A stretch of 64,000 nt of DNA from Nocardioides sp. zg-1308 (GTDB lineage: Bacteria > Actinomycetota > Actinomycetes > Propionibacteriales > Nocardioidaceae): the NCBI RefSeq assembly GCF_013155375.1, contig NZ_JABJQY010000002.1, forward strand, positions 1,798,001 to 1,862,000. Direction: 5' to 3'. The notes under the pieces are model-generated. The model was not told the origin of the DNA and did no database searches. It saw only the letters and a list, made by a program, of their open reading frames with translations. How positions within the stretch are numbered: position 1 is the first letter of the stretch; every line of letters begins with the position of its first letter. Both the position numbers and the translations under genes were made by a program. Positions 5,224 through 33,714 of this stretch are shown here, piece by piece.

Positions 5224-5259
5224 GATGCGTATCACGAAATGAGTTGCCTCATGCGCAAC
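5224..5259 (+). promoter_or_regulatory. Tandem 17-bp operator pair before metF (GTTGCG-N5-CGCAAC family)
   Basis: Site 1 (5224-5240) is GATGCG-TATCA-CGAAAT, with three differences from the consensus. Site 2 (5243-5259) is GTTGCC-TCATG-CGCAAC, with one difference. They are 2 bp apart, the same spacing as in the four operator pairs at 23-34 kb. The pair covers both candidate start codons of metF (5239 and 5251), so a bound protein would block the start of transcription or early elongation. Confidence 0.7.
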
Positions 5260-6096
5260 AAACGGACCGCCGCGACGCTGACCCGCCTGCTGGAGAACGC
5301 GCGCTACGAGGTGCTGCCCACCGCGTCCACGGAGGACAAGGTGCTCGAGCACCTGCCCCGGGACCGCACGGTCACGGTGACGGCCTCGCCCTCCAAGGGG
5401 CTCGAGGCGACCTTCGACCTCGCCGAGCGGCTCGCCGGCCACGGGTACGCCGTGGTGCCCCACGTCGCCGCTCGGATGGTGAGCGGCCGCACCGAGCTCG
5501 AGGAGATCGCCGACCGGCTGCTCGGCAAGGGCATCACCCGCGTCTTCGTCCCGGGCGGCGACGCCGAGCCGGCCGGGGACTACCCCGACGCGCTCGCCCT
5601 GCTGCAGGACCTCGCGGCCATGGGCTCGCCGTTCTCGCACGTCGGCATCACCGGCTATCCCGAGTCGCACCCGACGATCCACGACGACCTCACCGTGCAG
5701 TCGATGTGGGACAAGCGGCAGTTCGCCACCCACATCGTCAGCAACCTGACCTTCGACCCCACCCTGGTCCGCAGCTGGGTGCAGAGGCTGCGCGCCCGCG
5801 GGGTCGCGATGCCCCTGCTGCTCGGCATGCCCGGCCCGGTCGAGCGCACCAAGCTGCTGGGCATGGCCACGCGGATCGGGGTGGGGGAGTCGACGAAGTT
5901 CCTCGCCAAGAACAAGGGGCTCTTCGCGCGGCTCGCGGCGCCCGGCGGCTTCACCGGCGAGAGCTTCCTGGAGAAGTGCGCGCCCGCCCTCGGCGAGGAC
6001 GGGGCCCTGGTCGAGGGCCTGCACGTCTTCACGTTCAACCAGGTCGGCGAGACCGAGGCCTGGCGCACCGGCATGCTGGAGCGGTTGCGGGGCTAG
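5251..6096 (+). CDS. metF: Methylenetetrahydrofolate reductase family protein (MetF-like)
   Basis: 281 residues from ATG 5251; ATG 5239 and GTG 5212 are in-frame alternatives and none has a good ribosome binding site, so a leaderless or near-leaderless mRNA is possible. The TIM-barrel features are VTVTASPSKGLEATFDLAERLA near the N-terminus (FAD/folate-binding start), FVPGGDAEPAG, VGITGYPESHPTI and LLLGMPGPVERTKLL. MetF interconverts methyl-THF and methylene-THF. In this context it probably works in the oxidative direction on methyl-THF from the corrinoid system. It converges on the DUF1638 gene with a 4-bp overlap and carries the choline-block operator. Confidence 0.85.
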   Translation: MRNKRTAATLTRLLENARYEVLPTASTEDKVLEHLPRDRTVTVTASPSKGLEATFDLAERLAGHGYAVVPHVAARMVSGRTELEEIADRLLGKGITRVFVPGGDAEPAGDYPDALALLQDLAAMGSPFSHVGITGYPESHPTIHDDLTVQSMWDKRQFATHIVSNLTFDPTLVRSWVQRLRARGVAMPLLLGMPGPVERTKLLGMATRIGVGESTKFLAKNKGLFARLAAPGGFTGESFLEKCAPALGEDGALVEGLHVFTFNQVGETEAWRTGMLERLRG

Positions 6097-6776
6097 GTCG
6101 CCAGCCCCGCCCGTGGCGCGAGCCGCTGCTCCACGAGGTCGGCCAGCGCCTGCTCGAGCCCGCCGTGGCCCGTCTCGACGACGGTGAGCGGCAGCCCGAT
6201 GCGCGCCGCCGCGTCCTCGGCCAGCGCGCGCAGCTCGGCGTCGGGCGACTGCGCCAGCCACACGACGCGGGTGTAGTTGCCGAAGTAGGTGTCGCGCAGC
6301 TCGGGGTAGCGGTCGAGCCCCATCTCCTGGACGACCGTCCGGGAGAACGACCTGACCAGGAAGTCGGTCAGCAGGTAGGTGCCGGGCTGCTCGTCGAAGA
6401 ACCGCTCGAGCCGCGAGGGGCCGGCGAAGACGTCGTAGCAGTGCAGTCCCGCGAGCCGGGGCACCCCGAGCTGGAGGCACACCTCGTCGAGGGCTCCGTA
6501 GGTGCCGCAGTCGGCGTAGCCGATGACGACGTGGTCGTAGGACGTCCGCAGGTGGGTGGCCAGCACGTGGACCTCGTCAGCGATCCGGTCCGGGTGGTTG
6601 TGCAGGAGGGGCGGCAGCGGGTGCACGTCGAGCGGCCAGCCGCGCCGCTCGGCGACCGCGGCCGCGGGCTGGGCGATCGCCCCGCACGCGACGAGCGCGA
6701 CGCGACCGCGCCGGTCAGAAGGAAAGCTGCTCGACGAAGGCGTTGTTGAAGTCGGGCCGGTCCGAGAGCTCGACAT
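6093..6776 (-). CDS. DUF1638 family protein of corrinoid methyltransferase clusters
   Basis: 227 residues from ATG 6776. This start overlaps the preceding ASKHA gene by 62 bp, but it is well supported: GGAGGAGGTGACCT stands directly before it and no later ATG, GTG or TTG occurs before conserved sequence begins (VALVACGAIA, about residue 26). Conserved-looking parts include HPLPPLLHNHPDRIADEV, VIGYADCGTYGALDEVC and RLAGLHCYDVFAG, rich in Cys and His and possibly metal-binding. DUF1638 genes are typical companions of MttB-type methyltransferases; their function is unknown. It is the last gene of the leftward operon. Confidence 0.8.
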   Translation of the reverse strand: MSSSRTGPTSTTPSSSSFPSDRRGRVALVACGAIAQPAAAVAERRGWPLDVHPLPPLLHNHPDRIADEVHVLATHLRTSYDHVVIGYADCGTYGALDEVCLQLGVPRLAGLHCYDVFAGPSRLERFFDEQPGTYLLTDFLVRSFSRTVVQEMGLDRYPELRDTYFGNYTRVVWLAQSPDAELRALAEDAAARIGLPLTVVETGHGGLEQALADLVEQRLAPRAGLAT

Positions 6777-8697
6777 AGGTCACCTCCTCCAGCAGGGCCA
6801 GGGCGCCGGCCCGCTCGCGCACCGACAGCAGCGCCATCTTGGCGCCCTCGCCCGCGACGTTGCCAGCGGCGACGATGCGCAGCACCGGCAGCTGCGGCAC
6901 GAGCCCGATGCGTACGGCGGACGCGGGGGAGAGGTAGCTCCCGAACGAACCGGCGAGCAGCACCTGCTGCACGTCGCGGTGCTCGAGGCCGAGCTGCTCG
7001 AGCAGCAGCGACCAGCCGGTCGAGATCGCCGCCTTGGCGAACTGGAGCTCGCGGACGTCGCGCTGGGAGAGGTAGACGCACTCGGCCGGGTCCGACTCCG
7101 GGGTCGGCCGGTGCAGGATGAAGACCCGCTCCTCGCCGATGCGGGCGAGCCGGTCGGCCAGGGCGGGGGCGATCTCCTTCGCGGCCTCGTCGGGGACCAG
7201 CCGGCCGGTGGCGTCGAGCAGGCCGACGCGCACCAGCTCGGCGACCGCGTCGACGAGCCCCGAGCCGCACAGGCCCTTGGCCTCGACGTCGCCGATCACG
7301 CCGAGGGTGACGGCCGGGTCGTCGCCCAGGGCCGTCGGGTCGACCTTGATCACCTCGATGGCGCCGTCGGCCGCGCGCATGCCGCAGCGGATGGCGCCAC
7401 CCTCGAACGCCGGTCCGGCGGGCGCCGCGGTCGACAGGATGGTCTCGCCGTCGCTGAGCACGATCTCGCAGTTGGTGCCGACGTCGATGAAGAGCCGGGT
7501 GCGCTTGTCGCGGTCCATCCCGGTGGCGAGCATGCCGGCCACGATGTCGCCGCCGACGTAGGCGCCGAGGGCCGGGAAGAAGTACGCCCGCGCGCGCGGG
7601 TGCAGGGTGAGGCCGATCTCCGAGGCGAGCACCGAGGGCGGCTGCGAGGAGGACATGACGAACGGCGCGACGCCGAGCGGCTCCGGGTCGATGCCGAGCG
7701 CGAGCGCGGTCATCGTGGCGTTGCCGGCGACGGCGACCTCGTAGACCTGGGCCGGGTCGACGCCCGCCTCGCGGCAGACCTGCCCGGCCAGGGACGACAG
7801 GGTGCTGGCCGCCGCCTGCTGGAGCCGGCCGAGCGCCTCCTCGTCCATCATGGTGGCGCTGATCCGGGTGATCACGTCGCCGCCGAACGGCTGCTGCGCG
7901 TTGAGCATCGAGGTGACGGCCATGGGTGTCCCGGTGCCGACGTCGAGGAGGGTGCCGACGACCGTGGTGGTGCCGAGGTCGAAGGCGATCGCGTAGCGCG
8001 CCGCCGTCGTGTCGCCGGGCTCGACGTCGATGAGCGACTCGTCGAGGATCACCGCGGTGACCTTGAAGTCGGCCTCGCGCAGCACGGTCGACAGCCGCCG
8101 CAGGACGTGCAGGTCGGCGGTCAGCTCGAGGTCCTCGATGGCGTCGGTGAGCCGGACGAGGTCGGTGCGCTGGTCGGCGAGGGTGGCCTCGTCGAGCTCG
8201 ACGTAGCGCTTCTGCAGGGCCGGGCGCAGGATCACCTGGCGGCCGATGCCGACGGTCGCTGCCTTGGGCCGGGTGGTCAGCGGCGGCACCTCGACGGCGA
8301 GGTCGCGGGTGGCGTGGACCAGGCAGCCGAGGCGCCAGCCGTCCTCCAGCTGCGCCGGCGTGAACGTACGGACGTCGTGCCGGGTGACCGGCACCTCGCC
8401 GCCCGAGGTGACCTGCACCTTGCACTTGTGGCACGTGCCGTGGCCGCCGCAGGTGGAGTCGATGGCGATGCCGTTCCACGACGCGGCGTCGAAGACGGTC
8501 ACGCCCGGCGGCACGCGTACGCCGCGCTGGCTGGGCGGCACGGCGGTGCCGTCCTCGGCGCGGGTGTGGACGGTGAAGGACAGGTCGACCCGACCCGTTC
8601 CGTCGTGCGCGGCGGGGTCGGCTCCGGGCCGTTCGATGAGGCCCTCGCGGGCGACGTCCGCGAGGGAGAAGTCGGGCCCCTCGGGGGGTCGGGTCAC
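6715..8697 (-). CDS. Ferredoxin-ASKHA corrinoid activation protein (RACo-like, DUF4445)
   Basis: 660 residues from GTG 8697, chosen because it overlaps the stop of the upstream methyltransferase gene (GTGA) and because the frame further upstream is non-conserved. Residues about 30-110 are a plant-type [2Fe-2S] ferredoxin domain with the ligand pattern CGGHGTCHKC and a later Cys. The rest is an ASKHA ATPase-fold domain (AIAFDLGTTTVVGTLL, LFIDVGTNCEIVLSDG, CGSGLVDAVAELV, VLLAGSFGSYLSP). Such proteins use ATP to return inactive Co(II) corrinoid to Co(I). Its presence argues that the corrinoid protein turns over and needs repair, as expected in an aerobe. Confidence 0.88.
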   Translation of the reverse strand: MTRPPEGPDFSLADVAREGLIERPGADPAAHDGTGRVDLSFTVHTRAEDGTAVPPSQRGVRVPPGVTVFDAASWNGIAIDSTCGGHGTCHKCKVQVTSGGEVPVTRHDVRTFTPAQLEDGWRLGCLVHATRDLAVEVPPLTTRPKAATVGIGRQVILRPALQKRYVELDEATLADQRTDLVRLTDAIEDLELTADLHVLRRLSTVLREADFKVTAVILDESLIDVEPGDTTAARYAIAFDLGTTTVVGTLLDVGTGTPMAVTSMLNAQQPFGGDVITRISATMMDEEALGRLQQAAASTLSSLAGQVCREAGVDPAQVYEVAVAGNATMTALALGIDPEPLGVAPFVMSSSQPPSVLASEIGLTLHPRARAYFFPALGAYVGGDIVAGMLATGMDRDKRTRLFIDVGTNCEIVLSDGETILSTAAPAGPAFEGGAIRCGMRAADGAIEVIKVDPTALGDDPAVTLGVIGDVEAKGLCGSGLVDAVAELVRVGLLDATGRLVPDEAAKEIAPALADRLARIGEERVFILHRPTPESDPAECVYLSQRDVRELQFAKAAISTGWSLLLEQLGLEHRDVQQVLLAGSFGSYLSPASAVRIGLVPQLPVLRIVAAGNVAGEGAKMALLSVRERAGALALLEEVTYVELSDRPDFNNAFVEQLSF

Positions 8698-9574
8698 GTC
8701 GCGGCCGCCGCCGCCTGCTTGGCGCGGTGCGCCGAGATCCACGCCATGCCCCAGTCGTCGTGGCCGAGGAACACGTCGGCCGCCTTGACCGCCTCGACGA
8801 CGCGCGGCGTGCGGGTGTCCATGATCGCGCTGGTGAGCCCGGAGGTCATCGCCATCGGCAGCCACGAGGCGTTGAGGGTGTGCCGGTCGGGCATGCCGAA
8901 GGAGACGTTGGACGCGCCGCAGGTCATGTTGACGCCGAACTCGTCGCGGATGCGCCGCATCACCTCGAAGGTGACCAGCGTGGTGCTGGTGTCGGCGCCG
9001 ATCGGCATGGCCAGCGGGTCGATGACGATGTCGGCCTGCGCGAGACCGTACTCCTCGGTGGCCACCCGGATGATCTTGGCGGTGAGGTCGAGGCGCTTGT
9101 CGGCCTCCATCGGGATCTCGTCGTGGTCGTTGGGGAGCGCGATCACGGCCGCGTCGTACTTCTTGACGAGCGGGAGGATCGCCGCCATGCGGTCGTCCTC
9201 GGCGGTGATCGAGTTGACCAGCGCACGGCCCTGGTATACCGCGAGCCCCGCCTCGAGCGCCTCGACGACGGAGGAGTCGATGCAGATCGGCAGGTCGGTG
9301 AGCTCCTGCACCATCTGGATCGCCTTGGCGAGCAGCTCGGGCTCGTCGGTGAGCGGAACCCCCATGTTGATGTCGAGGACGTCGGCGCCGCCCTCCACCT
9401 GGGCCTTGACGTCGCGCTCGATCGCGGAGAAGTCGCCCGCGCGCAGCTGCTCCTGGAAGATCCTGCGACCCGTGGGGTTGATGCGCTCGCCGATGAGGCA
9501 GAACGGCCGGTCGTGGCCGATGACGACCTCGCGGGAGGCCGAGCGCAGGACGGTGTGCAGCCCGGTGGCGGACA

Positions 9575-9575
<1 letters not shown>
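8694..9575 (-). CDS. Methylcorrinoid:tetrahydrofolate methyltransferase (MtgA/MtrH type)
   Basis: 293 residues with a DHPS-like pterin-binding TIM barrel: CLIGERINPTGRR near the N-terminus, GADVLDINMG, PICIDSSVVEALEAGL, ALVNSITAEDDR, VIDPLAMPIG and GASNVSFGMPDR. This is the family of AcsE, the MetH folate domain and MtgA, which pass a methyl group between a corrinoid protein and THF. Here the direction is probably methyl-Co(III) to methyl-THF, which the nearby MetF can oxidise. Its ATG shares one base with the stop of the corrinoid protein gene (TGATG), and its stop overlaps the GTG of the activator gene. Confidence 0.9.
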
Positions 9576-10236
<661 letters not shown>

Positions 10237-10240
<4 letters not shown>

Positions 10241-11064
10241 GCGACCACCTCCTGGGTGCGTGCTGATCGGTGGGCGGGTCGGTGGTCCGAGCGGTGGGGC
10301 GGGTGGGTGGTGCGCCGGGCGGGTCCGCGCAGCAGGCTCGACAGCGCGGTGGACCGGTCGAGCAGGCGGCGGCCGAGCTCGTCGAGCCGCGCCTCCAGAC
10401 GGGGGGTGGGCCCGGAGATCCCGAGGGAGGCGACGAGGTCGCCGTGCACGCCGAAGACCGGGACGGCGATGCCGGTGAGGCCGATCTCGAGCTCGTCGCG
10501 GGTCAGCGCCCAGCCGCGCTCGCGGGTGCGCAGGCAGTCGCGGCGTACGTCGTCGCGGCCGGCGAGGGTGGCGGGCGTGGGCCGCTCCAGCTCGCCGTCG
10601 GGCAGCTCGAGGGCGTCCCAGGCGAGGAAGACCTTGCCGAGCGCGGAGCAGTGGGCCGGCACGTCGACCTCGGTCCAGTCGCGGGTGCCGAGCAGGAAGG
10701 TGGAGTCGACCTGCGCCACCTGCACGACGCGCTCGCCGCGGGTGACGCTGAGGTGGACGGTCTCGCCGGTGTCGGCGCCGATGTCGTCCATGACCGGACG
10801 AGCCAGCCGCACCAGCTCGTCCCAGGGGTCGTGGCGCGCGGCGTAGAGCCAGAACAGCCGGCCGGCGACGTAGGACCCGGCGGCGTCGCGCTCGAGCAGG
10901 CCGGAGCGCTCGAGGGCGGTCAGCAGCCGCGAGGTGGTCGACTTGGCCAGCCCGCTCGCGTCCTGGAGGTCGGCGAAGCTCATCGGCTCGTCGGCGTGCA
11001 CGACGGTGGCCACCAGGTCGGCGGCGCGGTCCAGCGCTCGCGTGCCGGTGGCGGGGTCGCTCAC
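10237..11064 (-). CDS. IclR-family regulator of the corrinoid operon
   Basis: 275 residues from GTG 11064. The N-terminal winged helix-turn-helix (about residues 8-70) has FADLQDASGLAKSTTSRLLTALE. The C-terminal effector domain has DTGETVHLSVTRGERVVQVAQV, HCSALGKVFLAW and GLTGIAVPVFGVHGDLVASLGISG. It is the first gene of the leftward operon (iclR, corrinoid protein, methyltransferase, activator, DUF1638) and faces the MttB-type gene across a 105-bp region holding a perfect palindrome. That arrangement suggests autoregulation and control of both directions. The effector could be a betaine or its product; the sequence does not show which. Confidence 0.92.
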
Positions 11065-11095
11065 GACGGCTCCTTCGCTGGAGGGGTTCCCTCGG

Positions 11096-11133
11096 GTTCC
11101 ATGATGTGGAACCGTGGTTCCACATCATGAGGC
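11096..11133. promoter_or_regulatory. Palindromic operator between iclR and the MttB-type gene
   Basis: GTTCCA-TGATG-TGGAAC (11096-11112) is a perfect 6-5-6 inverted repeat. A second copy with a degenerate right arm (GTTCCA-CATCA-TGAGGC, 11117-11133) follows 21 bp later. The two also form one larger perfect palindrome, with arms of 13 bases at 11101-11113 and 11116-11128 around GT. The region separates divergent genes, so one regulator can control both; the adjacent IclR protein is the obvious candidate. Confidence 0.8.
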
Positions 11134-11169
11134 TAGAAGCCCGCATGAGCCGAGGTCAAGGAGGAGCCC

Positions 11170-12609
11170 GTGTTCCGCAACACGATGCCGCGCTACGAGG
11201 TGCTGTCCGAGGACGCGATGGCGACCCTCGACAAGGGGTGGCGCCGACTGATGACCGAGATCGGCGTCGAGTTCATGGACGAGCGCGCCCTCGAGCTGTT
11301 CCGCCAGGCGGGCCAGCGCGTCGAGGACAACACCGTCTTCCTCGACCCCGACTTCGTCCTGGAGCAGGTCGCCAAGGCGCCGCGCGAGTTCGACGTGCAG
11401 GCGCGCAACCCCGAGAACTCCATCCACATCGGTGGCGACTCGATGGCGTTCGGCGCGGTCTACGGCCCGCCGTTCGTGCGGCAGGGCGACGTACGCCGCG
11501 ACGCGACGATGGAGGACTTCCGCAGCTTCACCAAGCTGGCGCAGTCGTTCGCGGTGCTCGACTCGGCCGGCGGGGTGATCTGCGAGCCCAACGACACCCC
11601 GCTCGACAGCCGCCACCTCGACATGACCTACGCGCTCCAGACGCTGACCGACAAGGTCTACATGGGCAACGTCGTGTCCGGGGTCAACGCCGCGGACACC
11701 CTCGCGATGACCTCGATCCTCTTCGGCTCGCGCGAGGCGATCGAGGACACCCCCGCCACGATCTCGCTGATCAACTGCAACTCGCCGCTGCGCTGGGACG
11801 ACCGGATGCTGGAGGCGCAGTTCGAGTACTCCCACGCCGGCCAGCCGGTGGTGCTCACGCCGTTCATCCTCATGGGCGCGATGTCGCCGGTGACGATCCC
11901 CGCGGCCCTGGTGCAGCAGATCGTCGAGGCGCTCTCCGGCATCGCGCTGTCGCAGCTGATCCGGCCGGGCACGCCCGTCATCTTCGGGTCCTTCCTGTCC
12001 AACATCGACATGCAGTCGGGGTCGCCGACGTTCGGCACGCCGGAGTCCGGCCTCGGGCTGCTGTGCACGGGCCAGATCGCCCGGCACTTCGGGCTGCCGT
12101 TCCGCACCGGCGGCGGGCTGACGTCCTCGCAGGTGGCGGACGCCCAGGCGGGCTACGAGGCGCTGATGACCCTGATGCCGACCTTCCTGGCCGGCGCCAA
12201 CTGGGTGATGCACTCGGCCGGCTGGCTCGAGGGCGGCCTGGTCGCCGGCTACGAGAAGTTCATCGTCGACATCGAGCTGCTGCAGATGCTGCGCCACGAG
12301 TTCACGCCGCTGGAGATCGACGAGGCGTCGATGGCCTTCGACGCCCACCAGGAGGTCGGCCACGGCGGGCACTTCCTCGGCGCCATGCACACGATGGAGC
12401 GCTTCCGCACCTGCTTCTACCGCCCGCTGCTGTCGTCGTCGGAGAACTACGAGCGGTGGATGCGCAACGGCGGCCACGATGCCAACGACCGCGCGACCGC
12501 GGCCTACCAGAAGACGCTGGCGGACTACGAGCAGCCGGCCCTCGACGACGCCGTGCGCGAGGAGCTCGAGGACTACGTCATCCGGCGGCGGGCCGAGCTG
12601 GGGGACTGA
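11170..12609 (+). CDS. MttB-family trimethylamine/betaine:corrinoid methyltransferase (non-pyrrolysine, MtgB-like)
   Basis: 479 residues from GTG 11170 with AAGGAGGAG upstream. Recognisable parts are YEVLSEDAMATLDKGWRRLM at the N-terminus, GVICEPNDTPLDSRHLDMTY, VLTPFILMGAMSPVTIPAAL, FRTGGGLTSSQVADAQAGYE and the C-terminal GHGGHFLGAMHTMERFRTCF. The frame has no in-frame TAG, so it is of the non-pyrrolysine branch. Characterised members of that branch demethylate glycine betaine (MtgB), proline betaine, carnitine or butyrobetaine. With choline oxidation genes nearby, glycine betaine is the most likely substrate, giving dimethylglycine. This substrate call is inference. Confidence 0.88.
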   Translation: MFRNTMPRYEVLSEDAMATLDKGWRRLMTEIGVEFMDERALELFRQAGQRVEDNTVFLDPDFVLEQVAKAPREFDVQARNPENSIHIGGDSMAFGAVYGPPFVRQGDVRRDATMEDFRSFTKLAQSFAVLDSAGGVICEPNDTPLDSRHLDMTYALQTLTDKVYMGNVVSGVNAADTLAMTSILFGSREAIEDTPATISLINCNSPLRWDDRMLEAQFEYSHAGQPVVLTPFILMGAMSPVTIPAALVQQIVEALSGIALSQLIRPGTPVIFGSFLSNIDMQSGSPTFGTPESGLGLLCTGQIARHFGLPFRTGGGLTSSQVADAQAGYEALMTLMPTFLAGANWVMHSAGWLEGGLVAGYEKFIVDIELLQMLRHEFTPLEIDEASMAFDAHQEVGHGGHFLGAMHTMERFRTCFYRPLLSSSENYERWMRNGGHDANDRATAAYQKTLADYEQPALDDAVREELEDYVIRRRAELGD

Positions 12610-13465
12610 CGCCGTCGCTGTGGTGGACGCTGTTCACCCAGACCGGCTCGGGATGGGTCTCGTCGCCGGCGGCCACGTCGGCGGCGGTCCGGAGCTTGGC
12701 GACCTTGTGGATCAGCATGCCGAAACCGACCTTCGCGATGACGTCGGCGGCTGAGAACGCCACGTGGATGGTCGTGGTCCACCATCCGCCGTCGAAGAAG
12801 ATCGGGATCAGGTAGACGACCGGGTAGACGAAGAAGACGGACAGCAGCACCGTGGCGGCCTGGCCGAGGCCGCGTCCCACATCGGCCGGCAGGCTCCTGA
12901 CCGAGGTCACCACCACGGGGACGAGCACCGCGTAGATCACCACGAAGCAGGCCATACTGACGCCCCACCACAGCCAGAGCCAGAAGGTGCTCTCACCCTC
13001 CTTGAACACCTGGTCCCCGAGGTAGCCGGTGACGATCATCGCGAACGCCGCAGCCATCACCACCGCTCGTGTGCCGGCGAGCTTGCGGCCGACGAGTGTG
13101 CACACGGCGAGGAGCTCGGCCATCAGCAGCGGCACGGTGACGGCCCAGTCCATGTAGCGCGAGGTGATGGTCGACAGCGCCTCGGAGTTCGGTACGTAGC
13201 TGCCGCCCGAGTAGTCGTAGCCACTTTGGACCTGCAGGAACACCATGAGGTACGACAGGCTCGCGACGCCCGCGATGCACAGGCTCGCCAGCACAGCCGG
13301 CCGGTAGCGCGAGCTCACCTCCCCCAGGCTGGTCCAGCTGTAGAGGAGCTGGGCGACGAGGGCGAAGCCCGCCACCACGATGCAGAAGACGATCAGGTCG
13401 TGCTGGGCCGAGCTCAGCACGACCCTCTCGGGAGCCGTGACATCGGCGGACGCGGCGAGGAGCAT
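12578..13465 (-). CDS. Microbial rhodopsin, proton-pump type (actinorhodopsin/xanthorhodopsin-like)
   Basis: 295 residues with seven hydrophobic helices. Helix C reads RYMDWAVTVPLLMAELL: Arg103, proton-acceptor Asp106, Thr110 and proton-donor Glu117 form the DTE motif of outward proton pumps. Helix G has ADVIAKVGFG, with counter-ion Asp241 and the retinal lysine Lys245. Leu114 aligns with proteorhodopsin Leu105, which predicts green absorption. The helix B position of proteorhodopsin His75 is Ser here. Retinal synthesis genes are not in the window. Its 3' end overlaps the MttB-type gene by 32 bp in convergent orientation; a truncated marR lies 100 bp upstream on the same strand. Confidence 0.93.
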   Translation of the reverse strand: MLLAASADVTAPERVVLSSAQHDLIVFCIVVAGFALVAQLLYSWTSLGEVSSRYRPAVLASLCIAGVASLSYLMVFLQVQSGYDYSGGSYVPNSEALSTITSRYMDWAVTVPLLMAELLAVCTLVGRKLAGTRAVVMAAAFAMIVTGYLGDQVFKEGESTFWLWLWWGVSMACFVVIYAVLVPVVVTSVRSLPADVGRGLGQAATVLLSVFFVYPVVYLIPIFFDGGWWTTTIHVAFSAADVIAKVGFGMLIHKVAKLRTAADVAAGDETHPEPVWVNSVHHSDGVSPPARPAAG

Positions 13466-17826: not shown

Positions 17827-17972
17827 CATCAAGGCGTGGGCGTCCTCCATGCGGCGCCCTGGAGCACGGCCTCGGGGGTACGAACTTCGAGCATGCGTTG
17901 GCCGGCGTGCTCGGCCTCCCGGCGGCGCGGACCGTGCTGCGACGAGCCGGCCGAGTCAGTAGCCTCCTGACC

Positions 17973-18250
17973 ATGGATGCGCGGACACCGGTGACGCATG
18001 AGAACAGCGACCACGTGCCCGGACCGTTCCTTCACGGCACCAAGGCCGAGCTACGCCCCGGGGACGAGCTGCGCGCGGGCCACTCCTCGAACTTCCAGAC
18101 GGGGCGGGTGTCGAACCACATCTACTTCACCACCCTTGAGAGCACCGCGGCGTGGGGCGCACAGCTGGCGACAGCGCTCGCGGGTCTGGACGGGCGAGGC
18201 CACATCTACGCCGTCGAGCCGATGGGGCCCTTCGAGGACGACCCGAAAAG
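17973..18250 (+). pseudogene. arr: Truncated rifamycin ADP-ribosyltransferase (Arr)
   Basis: From ATG 17973 the first 92 or so residues match Arr closely: GPFLHGTKAELRPGDELRAGH, GRVSNHIYFTTLESTAAWGAQLA, GRGHIYAVEPMGPFEDDP. Arr proteins are about 140 residues and continue with a PGNPTRSYR-type segment that is absent here. After FEDDPK the frame runs on to 18530 in unrelated sequence. The missing third includes conserved parts of the fold, so rifamycin inactivation is unlikely. The rpoB in this window has a wild-type rifamycin-binding region. Confidence 0.75.
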
Positions 18251-18669
18251 GTTGAGACTGGCGAGGCCAGGCGCGAGCTCGGACTCTCACCAGAACTGCG
18301 TTCAGAACCCGAGGATTGATGACCTCTCTAGAGCCGTCCGCGGCGCCAGCGCGCGGCCGGAATTCACTACAGGCAGGCGGCGAAGTGACGCACTCATCGC
18401 GGCAGATCCGGGCGTTTGCGATGGTGCGAACGGATGCCCTTCGGCCGCTACAGCGAAATCCAGTAGCGCCGCTCCGACCCACGTGGACTCGGGCGCTCGT
18501 CCTTCAACGTCCCGCCGTTTCGCTCGATGACCCTTCTGGAACCCACGTCGGCGCTGTCGCATATGCGCGCGGCCAGATCCGAGAGCAGTTGACCGTACAG
18601 CGCGTTGCACGCTCATCGGCATGTGCGGATGCGCAGATTCGGGGGTCCTGCTGGTCGCCCGGCCCCGTC
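18251..18669. other. Unassigned segment between the arr remnant and an ArsR gene
   Basis: About 420 bases follow the break in arr. Its base composition looks less GC-rich than the surroundings, and no reading frame on either strand shows a recognisable domain or good codon bias. I see no inverted terminal repeats or transposase motif. It is probably debris left by the event that cut arr. Confidence 0.4.
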
Positions 18670-23289: not shown

Positions 23290-23325
23290 GTTGCGCTCCA
23301 CGGAACGCAGTCTGCGATACGCAAC
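23290..23325. promoter_or_regulatory. Tandem 17-bp operator pair between purU and iclR
   Basis: Site 1 (23290-23306) is GTTGCG-CTCCA-CGGAAC. Site 2 (23309-23325) is AGTCTG-CGATA-CGCAAC, with a good right arm and a poor left arm. They keep the 2-bp gap seen at the other four places. The pair lies between divergent purU-fhs and iclR, so it could control both. A possible iclR -10 element, TAGTGT (23337-23342), would start transcription almost at the iclR ATG (23349). Confidence 0.65.
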
Positions 23326-23348: not shown

Positions 23349-24167
23349 ATGGCGAAGGGTGCCGACGTGCAGGACCGGGGCGAGGAGCAGGCGCCCGCGA
23401 GCTCCGCCGTGACGGGTGCGGGTGTGCAGTCGGTCGACCGCGCGCTGGGGATCCTCGAGGTGCTGGCGCGCACCGGCGAGTCCGGCGTCACCGAGATCGC
23501 CGGCGAGCTCGGCGTCCACAAGAGCACCGCCTTCCGGCTGGTCGCGACGCTCGAGGCGCACCGCCTCGTCGAGCAGACCGCCGACCGGGGGCGCTACCGC
23601 CTCGGGATGGGCATCCTCCGACTGGCGGGCGCCACGACGGCACGCCTCGACCTCGTGCAGGAGGCCCGGCCGATCGCGCGCCAGCTCGCGGCCGACACGG
23701 GCGAGACGGTCAACATCGCCGTCCTCGCCGAGAGCTCGGCGCTCTACCTCGACCAGGTCGCCGGCTCCTCGGCCCTCCAGCCGCACAACTGGGTCGGGCA
23801 GCACATCCCGCTCCACGCGACGAGCAACGGCAAGGTGCTGCTGGCCGGGCTGGACGAGCCCGGCCTGGAGGCCGTCCTCGGCCAGCTGGCGACGTACACC
23901 CCCCACACGATCACCCGGCGCGCGCAGCTGCGCGAGGAGCTGGCCCAGGTCCGCGAGCAGGGCCACGCCGTCGCCGTCGACGAGCTGGAGGTCGGCCTCA
24001 CCGCGGTCGCCGCGCCGATCCGCAACGCGCACGGCGACGTGGTCGCCTCGATCAGCGTCTCCGGACCGTCGTTCCGGCTGCCCGAGGACCGGTTGGCCGA
24101 GGTGGTCCGGGCGGTCGTCGAAGCCGCCCGCGAGGTGTCCCACCGTCTCGGGTGGGGTCACAGGTAG
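23349..24167 (+). CDS. IclR-family regulator, proposed master regulator of the choline/betaine block
   Basis: 272 residues from ATG 23349. The wHTH has VTEIAGELGVHKSTAFRLVATLE and RLVEQTADRGRYRLG. The effector domain has DTGETVNIAVLAESSALYLDQV, PLHATSNGKVLLAGL and GLTAVAAPIRNAHGDVVASISVSG. It sits in the middle of the block, between purU-fhs (divergent) and the betB operon (same strand). It is the natural candidate to bind the tandem GTTGCG-N5-CGCAAC operators found before itself and before four neighbouring transcription units. Because those sites lie downstream of or over promoters, repression lifted by choline or a betaine metabolite is most likely. Confidence 0.92.
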   Translation: MAKGADVQDRGEEQAPASSAVTGAGVQSVDRALGILEVLARTGESGVTEIAGELGVHKSTAFRLVATLEAHRLVEQTADRGRYRLGMGILRLAGATTARLDLVQEARPIARQLAADTGETVNIAVLAESSALYLDQVAGSSALQPHNWVGQHIPLHATSNGKVLLAGLDEPGLEAVLGQLATYTPHTITRRAQLREELAQVREQGHAVAVDELEVGLTAVAAPIRNAHGDVVASISVSGPSFRLPEDRLAEVVRAVVEAAREVSHRLGWGHR

Positions 24168-24245: not shown

Positions 24246-24281
24246 GTTGCGCTCGGAGCACCTGGTTGCGACATGCGCAAC
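24246..24281 (+). promoter_or_regulatory. Tandem 17-bp operator pair before the betB operon
   Basis: Site 1 (24246-24262) is GTTGCG-CTCGG-AGCACC; site 2 (24265-24281) is GTTGCG-ACATG-CGCAAC, a perfect arm pair. The gap is 2 bp. A -35-like TTGACG (24201-24206) lies upstream within a GCCCTTG/CAAGGGC inverted repeat (24197-24216); no convincing -10 is visible. The sites end 23 bp before the betB GTG. Confidence 0.8.
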
Positions 24282-31720: not shown

Positions 31721-31756
31721 GTTGCTAACCACGCACTAGGTTGCGCAACGCGCAAC
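31721..31756 (+). promoter_or_regulatory. Tandem 17-bp operator pair before the BCCT gene
   Basis: Site 1 (31721-31737) is GTTGCT-AACCA-CGCACT; site 2 (31740-31756) is GTTGCG-CAACG-CGCAAC, a perfect arm pair. The gap is 2 bp (AG). The pair lies just downstream of the presumed promoter and 15 bp before the ATG at 31772. Confidence 0.8.
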
Positions 31757-33678: not shown

Positions 33679-33714
33679 GTCGCACATGACGCAACGTGTT
33701 GCGTGATACGCAAC
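33679..33714 (+). promoter_or_regulatory. Tandem 17-bp operator pair before the flavoprotein-ETF operon
   Basis: Site 1 (33679-33695) is GTCGCA-CATGA-CGCAAC; site 2 (33698-33714) is GTTGCG-TGATA-CGCAAC, a perfect arm pair. The gap is 2 bp (GT). They start 8 bp after the presumed -10, so they cover the transcription start, as expected for a repressor site. Confidence 0.8.

Follow-up and report, generated by a model that had tools for sequence, protein, structure and literature searches.

Gene organization around the corrinoid operon

The window, by which we mean the whole 64-kb stretch of DNA analyzed here, carries a tightly packed corrinoid operon, in the order iclR1, mtgC, pterin methyltransferase, ramA and DUF1638, that faces a divergent gene of the MttB superfamily across a gap of 105 bp.

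6093–6776, minus strand: DUF1638 protein (PF07796), a corrinoid recharging partner in the role proposed in PMC12478193
6715–8697, minus strand: RamA/RACo-type corrinoid reductive activase (PF14574, PF17651, PF17650, Fer2)
8694–9575, minus strand: pterin-binding methyltransferase in the MtgA/MtgD role (PF00809; NF005719 above cut-off)
9575–10243, minus strand: MtgC-like corrinoid protein (PF02310, PF02607), overlapping the end of iclR1 by 7 bp
10237–11064, minus strand: IclR1 (PF09339 and PF01614), first gene of the corrinoid operon
11170–12609, plus strand: MttB-superfamily methyltransferase (non-pyrrolysine), MtgB-like, the divergent target (PF06253, E=4e-188)

IclR1 is placed in the IclR family by both of its domains (PF09339, 48.9 bits against a cut-off of 22; PF01614, 98.2 bits against 24), and the earlier note's assignment of an IclR protein to the corrinoid operon is borne out, as IclR1 heads that operon. 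The MtgC-like protein has MtgC (NF047996) as its best NCBIfam match, at a score below cut-off, and the MttB-superfamily protein has a relative in the PDB described as “Glycine betaine methyltransferase” (9yce, E=9.5e-121). The locus thereby holds the components of an MtgBC gene set, namely a non-pyrrolysine MttB homologue, a corrinoid protein, a pterin methyltransferase and RamA. The surrounding betaine uptake and oxidation genes, together with the replacement by GbcA-like enzymes described below, suggest that the substrate of the MttB system is glycine betaine. IclR1 very probably controls a vitamin-B12-type glycine-betaine demethylase.

A three-box element in the divergent promoter region

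The gap between iclR1 and the MttB gene contains a perfect dyad, GTTCCA-N5-TGGAAC (GTTCCATGATGTGGAAC, 11096–11112), with two 6-bp arms around a 5-bp spacer, as the earlier note had described. The second copy of the palindrome that the same note placed 21 bp further on proved to be a left arm alone, at 11117, where the right arm reads TGAGGC rather than TGGAAC. What had been missed is that this second GTTCCA and the right arm of the first dyad lie opposite each other in a perfect inverted repeat with 14-bp arms (CATGATGTGGAACC-GT-GGTTCCACATCATG, 11100–11113/11116–11129). Three boxes in alternating direction (GTTCCA> <TGGAAC GTTCCA>) thus make up one element at about 11096–11122, one pair being of group 1 and the other of group 2, which is the arrangement of an IclR three-box operator.

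11085–11091, plus strand: extra half-site GGTTCCC, 10–11 bp upstream of box 1
11096–11101, plus strand: box 1, GTTCCA, outer half-site of the group-1 dyad
11107–11112, minus strand: box 2, TGGAAC, half-site common to both dyads
11117–11122, plus strand: box 3, GTTCCA, whose partner is box 2 and not a fourth box
11134–11139, plus strand: TAGAAG, a hexamer resembling a −10 box in the mttB promoter; box 3 starts 17 bp away

Within the 64-kb window, a single dyad match is found at up to two mismatches against 0.99 expected, which by itself is within chance; the significance of the dyad comes instead from the comparison across genomes. Across 59 genomes of the genus there are 23 instances of the exact dyad (GTTCCAYNNNRTGGAAC), of which 21 adjoin an IclR1 gene, and the reversed control pattern has no match in the same genomes. 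The exact dyad is present in all 21 genomes with IclR1 and in 1 of the 38 without, a co-occurrence whose formal significance (Fisher p = 4e-15) is inflated because the genomes are related and no correction for this was made. Outside the window’s own genome, 20 of 21 dyad sites flank an IclR1 gene, and the sole exception to the pattern (L125) resembles a match inside a gene.

A matrix built from 10 distant, class-level loci was applied to 77 independent, nearer intergenic regions; 73 of these scored higher than the 99th percentile of dinucleotide-shuffled sequences, and 70 higher than any shuffle. In the alignment of 77 loci with a readable iclR1–mttB gap, the window counted among them, box 2 is the best conserved (at most one mismatch in 72), followed by box 3 (56) and box 1 (54), the last having been lost in Phycicoccus and relatives. 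Boxes 1 and 2 are both present at this stringency in 53 loci, and all three in 39. Class-level relatives (L158–L169) retain box 3, and the three-box arrangement recurs across the class at about 45–55% IclR identity. The extra half-site at 11085 (GGTTCC) is confined to close relatives of the window’s locus, the nearest of which are Nocardioides species. The element is a deeply conserved, IclR-adjacent DNA switch in soil actinobacteria, and its three-box feature is very probably functional.

We also considered the long inverted repeat as the conserved unit. At least 9 of 13 arm positions are complementary in 69 of the 77 loci, and the full 14-bp arms hold in Nocardioidaceae; since distant relatives keep the boxes alone, the extension of the repeat is either lineage-specific or part of the promoter.

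Statements about the whole 4.38-Mb genome derive from pattern searches. These returned the iclR1/mttB site and one other GTTCCA-type site. This second near-copy of the operator, GTTCCACGATGTGGAAC-GTG-GTTCGACAT, lies on the minus strand at L081:1501-1517 (G000:C2:1103647-1103663) and, allowing one gap, is almost identical to the mttB site along about 35 bp. It stands upstream of a gene whose secreted product has a 5'-nucleotidase C-terminal domain and a 3-keto-disaccharide-hydrolase domain, and a search of relatives for a second site of this type found no similar one.

The site follows the regulator rather than the enzyme

Three genomes (G029, G076 and G005) have no MttB anywhere and nevertheless retain an IclR1-type regulator with its site. 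In each, the place of the MttB gene beside the regulator (L139, L140 and L146) is taken by an operon for a Rieske ferredoxin and a GbcA-like Rieske oxygenase, whose matches to the GbcA model, at 201–226 bits, fall far below the curated cut-off of 670; a ferredoxin reductase was identified in the operons of G076 and G005. The regulators of these three loci nest inside the MttB-linked IclR1 clade in the tree. G005 keeps all three boxes and a 17-bp spacing to TAGGGT ahead of the Rieske operon. Box 3 is missing in G029 and G076, and a separate TTGACA stands about 100 bp downstream of the site, so that control of the oxygenase is uncertain in these two.

The converse case is provided by G195, which has MttB and no IclR1: here the site has decayed, with box 1 altered and box 3 gone, and neither IclR1 nor IclR2 is encoded near the MttB locus (L179). 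That the site is kept without MttB and decays without IclR1 argues that it belongs to IclR1. Against this stand two related genomes (G008 and G031; L142 and L143), which encode an IclR1-like protein, lack MttB altogether and show no recognizable operator next to the regulator. At L179, upstream of 5830, an IclR2-type half-site (GACGCAAC) occupies the position of box 3.

A second IclR circuit in the same pathway

A second regulator, IclR2, falls in a clade separate from that of IclR1 (SH-aLRT 100). Its motif, GTTGCG-N5-CGCAAC, has exactly three perfect sites in the genome, at 24265, 31740 and 33698, all within the choline/betaine uptake and oxidation cluster, and degenerate tandem copies stand 19 bp upstream of two of them, at 24246 and 33679.

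5243–5259, plus strand: IclR2-type site with one mismatch, spanning the start codon of an MTHFR-like gene at 5251
23349–24167, plus strand: IclR2 (PF09339 and PF01614), the second regulator
24246–24281, plus strand: IclR2 tandem operator for an aldehyde dehydrogenase and downstream genes, with a TTGAC-type promoter upstream
31740–31756, plus strand: IclR2 operator for a BCCT transporter gene, perfect motif
33679–33714, plus strand: IclR2 tandem operator for a dimethylglycine/sarcosine-dehydrogenase-like gene, a perfect and a degenerate copy

The two motifs partition their targets genome-wide, which supports a division of labor between the regulators. The earlier note had held that the arm sequences of the two families differ and that two IclR proteins split one pathway, and both points are supported, the arms being GTTCCA for IclR1 and GTTGCG for IclR2. 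It gave the oxidation half and metF to one regulator; the three perfect sites lie in the oxidation cluster, and the MTHFR-like gene has a site with one mismatch and a weak Pfam match (23.4 bits against a cut-off of 24). The idea of a parallel operator design with equal geometry is not supported, because the IclR1 site consists of three boxes and not of two dyads, the 19-bp tandem spacing of IclR2 differs from the three-box arrangement, and the promoter contexts are opposite. A further IclR2-type site with one mismatch, at 23290–23306 between a formyltransferase/ACT gene (PurU-like) and iclR2, suggests autoregulation of IclR2.

Two attempts to read motif preference from the proteins were uninformative. 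Covariation of the recognition helix with motif variants failed because the helix is too conserved, and the residue–base rules of PMC8222616 fit IclR1 (Lys28 and the flanking G) without predicting the GTTGCG of IclR2, so we do not count them as evidence.

Promoter layout and direction of regulation

The two circuits differ in where the sites lie relative to the promoter. The mttB promoter shows no −35 box across the 77 loci (mean TTGACA match of 1.74/6 against 2.55 for random positions), whereas among perfect IclR2 sites in relatives 30 of 31 have TTGAC within 75 bp upstream, and most also have a GTTGCG about 19 bp before them. In 68 of 77 loci the TA of the −10-like hexamer (TAGGAT in many relatives) lies 17 or 18 bp from box 3, and the distance from box 3 to the start codon ranges between 32 and 213 bp. 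The position of the IclR1 site in place of a −35 box would suit an activator, and that of the IclR2 sites downstream of TTGAC-type promoters a repressor.

The missing −35 box and the rigid spacing favor activation of mttB, and the layout agrees with a PcaU/PobR-type activator circuit, in which the site lies at the −35 region of the divergent promoter. PcaU and PobR activate their divergent target and repress their own gene, and for PcaU the third box was shown to be necessary for binding; in the present element, the conservation of box 3 suggests such a need. Many actinobacterial promoters lack a −35 box, so its absence here is no proof of activation, and a dimer on the −35 region would also repress.

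A shared tryptophan in the effector region

Trp130 sits immediately ahead of the conserved SALGK segment in the ligand domain. It is invariant in IclR1 (118/118) and IclR2 (12/12) and is missing from the genome's four other IclR proteins and from the five closest PDB relatives listed. For this residue one would naturally suppose a cation–pi contact with a quaternary amine, and both regulators may sense such a compound. The earlier note had suggested that the demethylase could respond to betaine alone; as Trp130 is found in both regulators, the sequence gives no support for this in either one.

Proposed mechanism and alternatives

We consider it the best explanation, with a probability of about two in three, that the element is a three-box IclR1 operator that autorepresses the iclR1 side and activates mttB in response to a quaternary amine, IclR2 forming a separate repressor circuit. 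IclR1 would read the three alternating half-sites at about 11096–11122 as its operator, boxes 1 and 2 forming the wide (group 1) dyad and boxes 2 and 3 the narrow (group 2) dyad, and would probably sit on one face of the DNA as a dimer of dimers. The analysis shows the sequence, the tie of the site to IclR1 and its specificity, and from there we infer binding, a tetrameric state, activation and an effector. A single operator would then serve two divergent promoters. On the side of iclR1-mtgC-mtgA-ramA-DUF1638 it is at most about 31 bp away from the start and would bring about autorepression; on the mttB side it replaces the missing −35 box at a fixed distance from the −10, where effector-bound IclR1 most likely activates, as modeled on PcaU and PobR with their three-box sites. 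As for the signal, a quaternary amine is likely, glycine betaine being the simplest candidate, and IclR2 would act through its different motif, in a repressor-type layout, on genes of choline/betaine uptake and oxidation.

The direction of control is where another reading has the most to say. IclR1 could be a plain repressor of both divergent promoters at the same operator, released by betaine or a breakdown product: the site overlaps the mttB −35 region and adjoins the iclR1 start, the paired regulator IclR2 shows a repressor layout, and HmgR, another three-box IclR protein, acts as a repressor. We regard this as unlikely, since no −35-like hexamer is seen at the mttB promoter over the 77 loci and the spacing between box 3 and −10 is rigid, whereas repressors accept more positions, as the IclR2 sites do.

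Other readings concern what the element is or which protein binds it. The recurrence of GTTCCA at 21 bp invites the view that two independent dyads each hold a full IclR dimer, tandem IclR sites with 18–22 bp between centers being common (PMC8222616); this is very improbable, because a right arm for the second dyad is absent from all 77 loci even at one mismatch, TGAGGC or TGAGGT stands there in 68, and class-level relatives have unrelated sequence after box 3. It is scarcely credible that the conservation reflects an element of the mttB core promoter or of its RNA (hairpin or attenuator) instead of a regulator site. The long inverted repeat could fold into an RNA hairpin and the 3' part (ATGAGGcTAGGAT), −10 included, is strongly conserved; against this, the repeat is upstream of the −10 and would therefore be left out of the mttB transcript, the element has no Rfam match, box 1 is left unexplained, and the site persists with IclR1 in genomes without MttB and decays where IclR1 is missing. 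That IclR2 or another regulator is the binder is likewise most unlikely: IclR1 and IclR2 have most recognition-helix residues in common (KST.[SF]R), but their motifs (GTTCCA and GTTGCG) and targets differ, and the presence of the site tracks IclR1 in the 59 genomes.

Relation to known systems

The kind of operator is known, three-box and tandem IclR-family operators having been described by Suvorova & Gelfand 2021 (PMC8222616); PcaU, PobR and HmgR are regulators of this kind. The site resembles the described ones in that one pair fits GKTYCRYW3-4RYGRAMC and the other TGRAACAN1-2TGTTYCA, in its two-turn spacing and in the divergent gene adjoining the regulator. It departs from the group-2 consensus by one mismatch per half (TGGAACC-GT-GGTTCCA for boxes 2 and 3) and from the group-1 consensus in its 3-bp core, which is GAT and not W3. 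The target, an operon for a corrinoid betaine demethylase, also differs; betaine, trimethylamine and corrinoid go unmentioned in the main text of PMC8222616.

Mausz et al. 2025 (PMC12478193) demonstrated by genetic means that MtgBCD carries out aerobic, B12-dependent demethylation of betaine in the marine Ruegeria pomeroyi. The present locus shares with it an MttB-type MtgB, MtgC, a pterin methyltransferase, RamA, DUF1638, an MTHFR-like gene and later demethylation genes nearby, and differs in its actinobacterial operon organization and two IclR regulators, no IclR being named in the MtgBCD account of that paper. Our literature search found no IclR regulator of betaine demethylation and no account of MtgBCD regulation in actinobacteria. 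The Rieske monooxygenase GbcAB carries out the same first demethylation step as the MtgB system; in three genomes a GbcA-like operon adjoins an IclR1-type regulator that has kept the same site, and the window holds no such operon.

This operator of a known kind comes with an uncharacterized regulator and an informative exchange of enzymes. We put forward, tentatively and at somewhat less than even odds, that an actinomycete IclR activator sensing quaternary amines and its three-box operator form a betaine demethylation switch that was kept through the exchange of MtgB and Rieske GbcA-like enzymes, with a logic opposite to that of the sister IclR repressor of choline/betaine uptake and oxidation. 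Such an exchange under a conserved regulator and site would mean that the signal, and not the enzyme chemistry, defines the regulon. The site, the regulator and the contrasting sister circuit yield direct, testable predictions, and site and regulator may be usable as a betaine sensor part.

Two other genes of the window were recorded in passing. A bacteriorhodopsin-like protein (PF01036) is encoded directly after mttB and convergent with it (12578–13465, minus strand), and an ORF with a rifampin ADP-ribosyltransferase (Arr-ms) domain (PF12120) lies at 17898–18530 on the plus strand.
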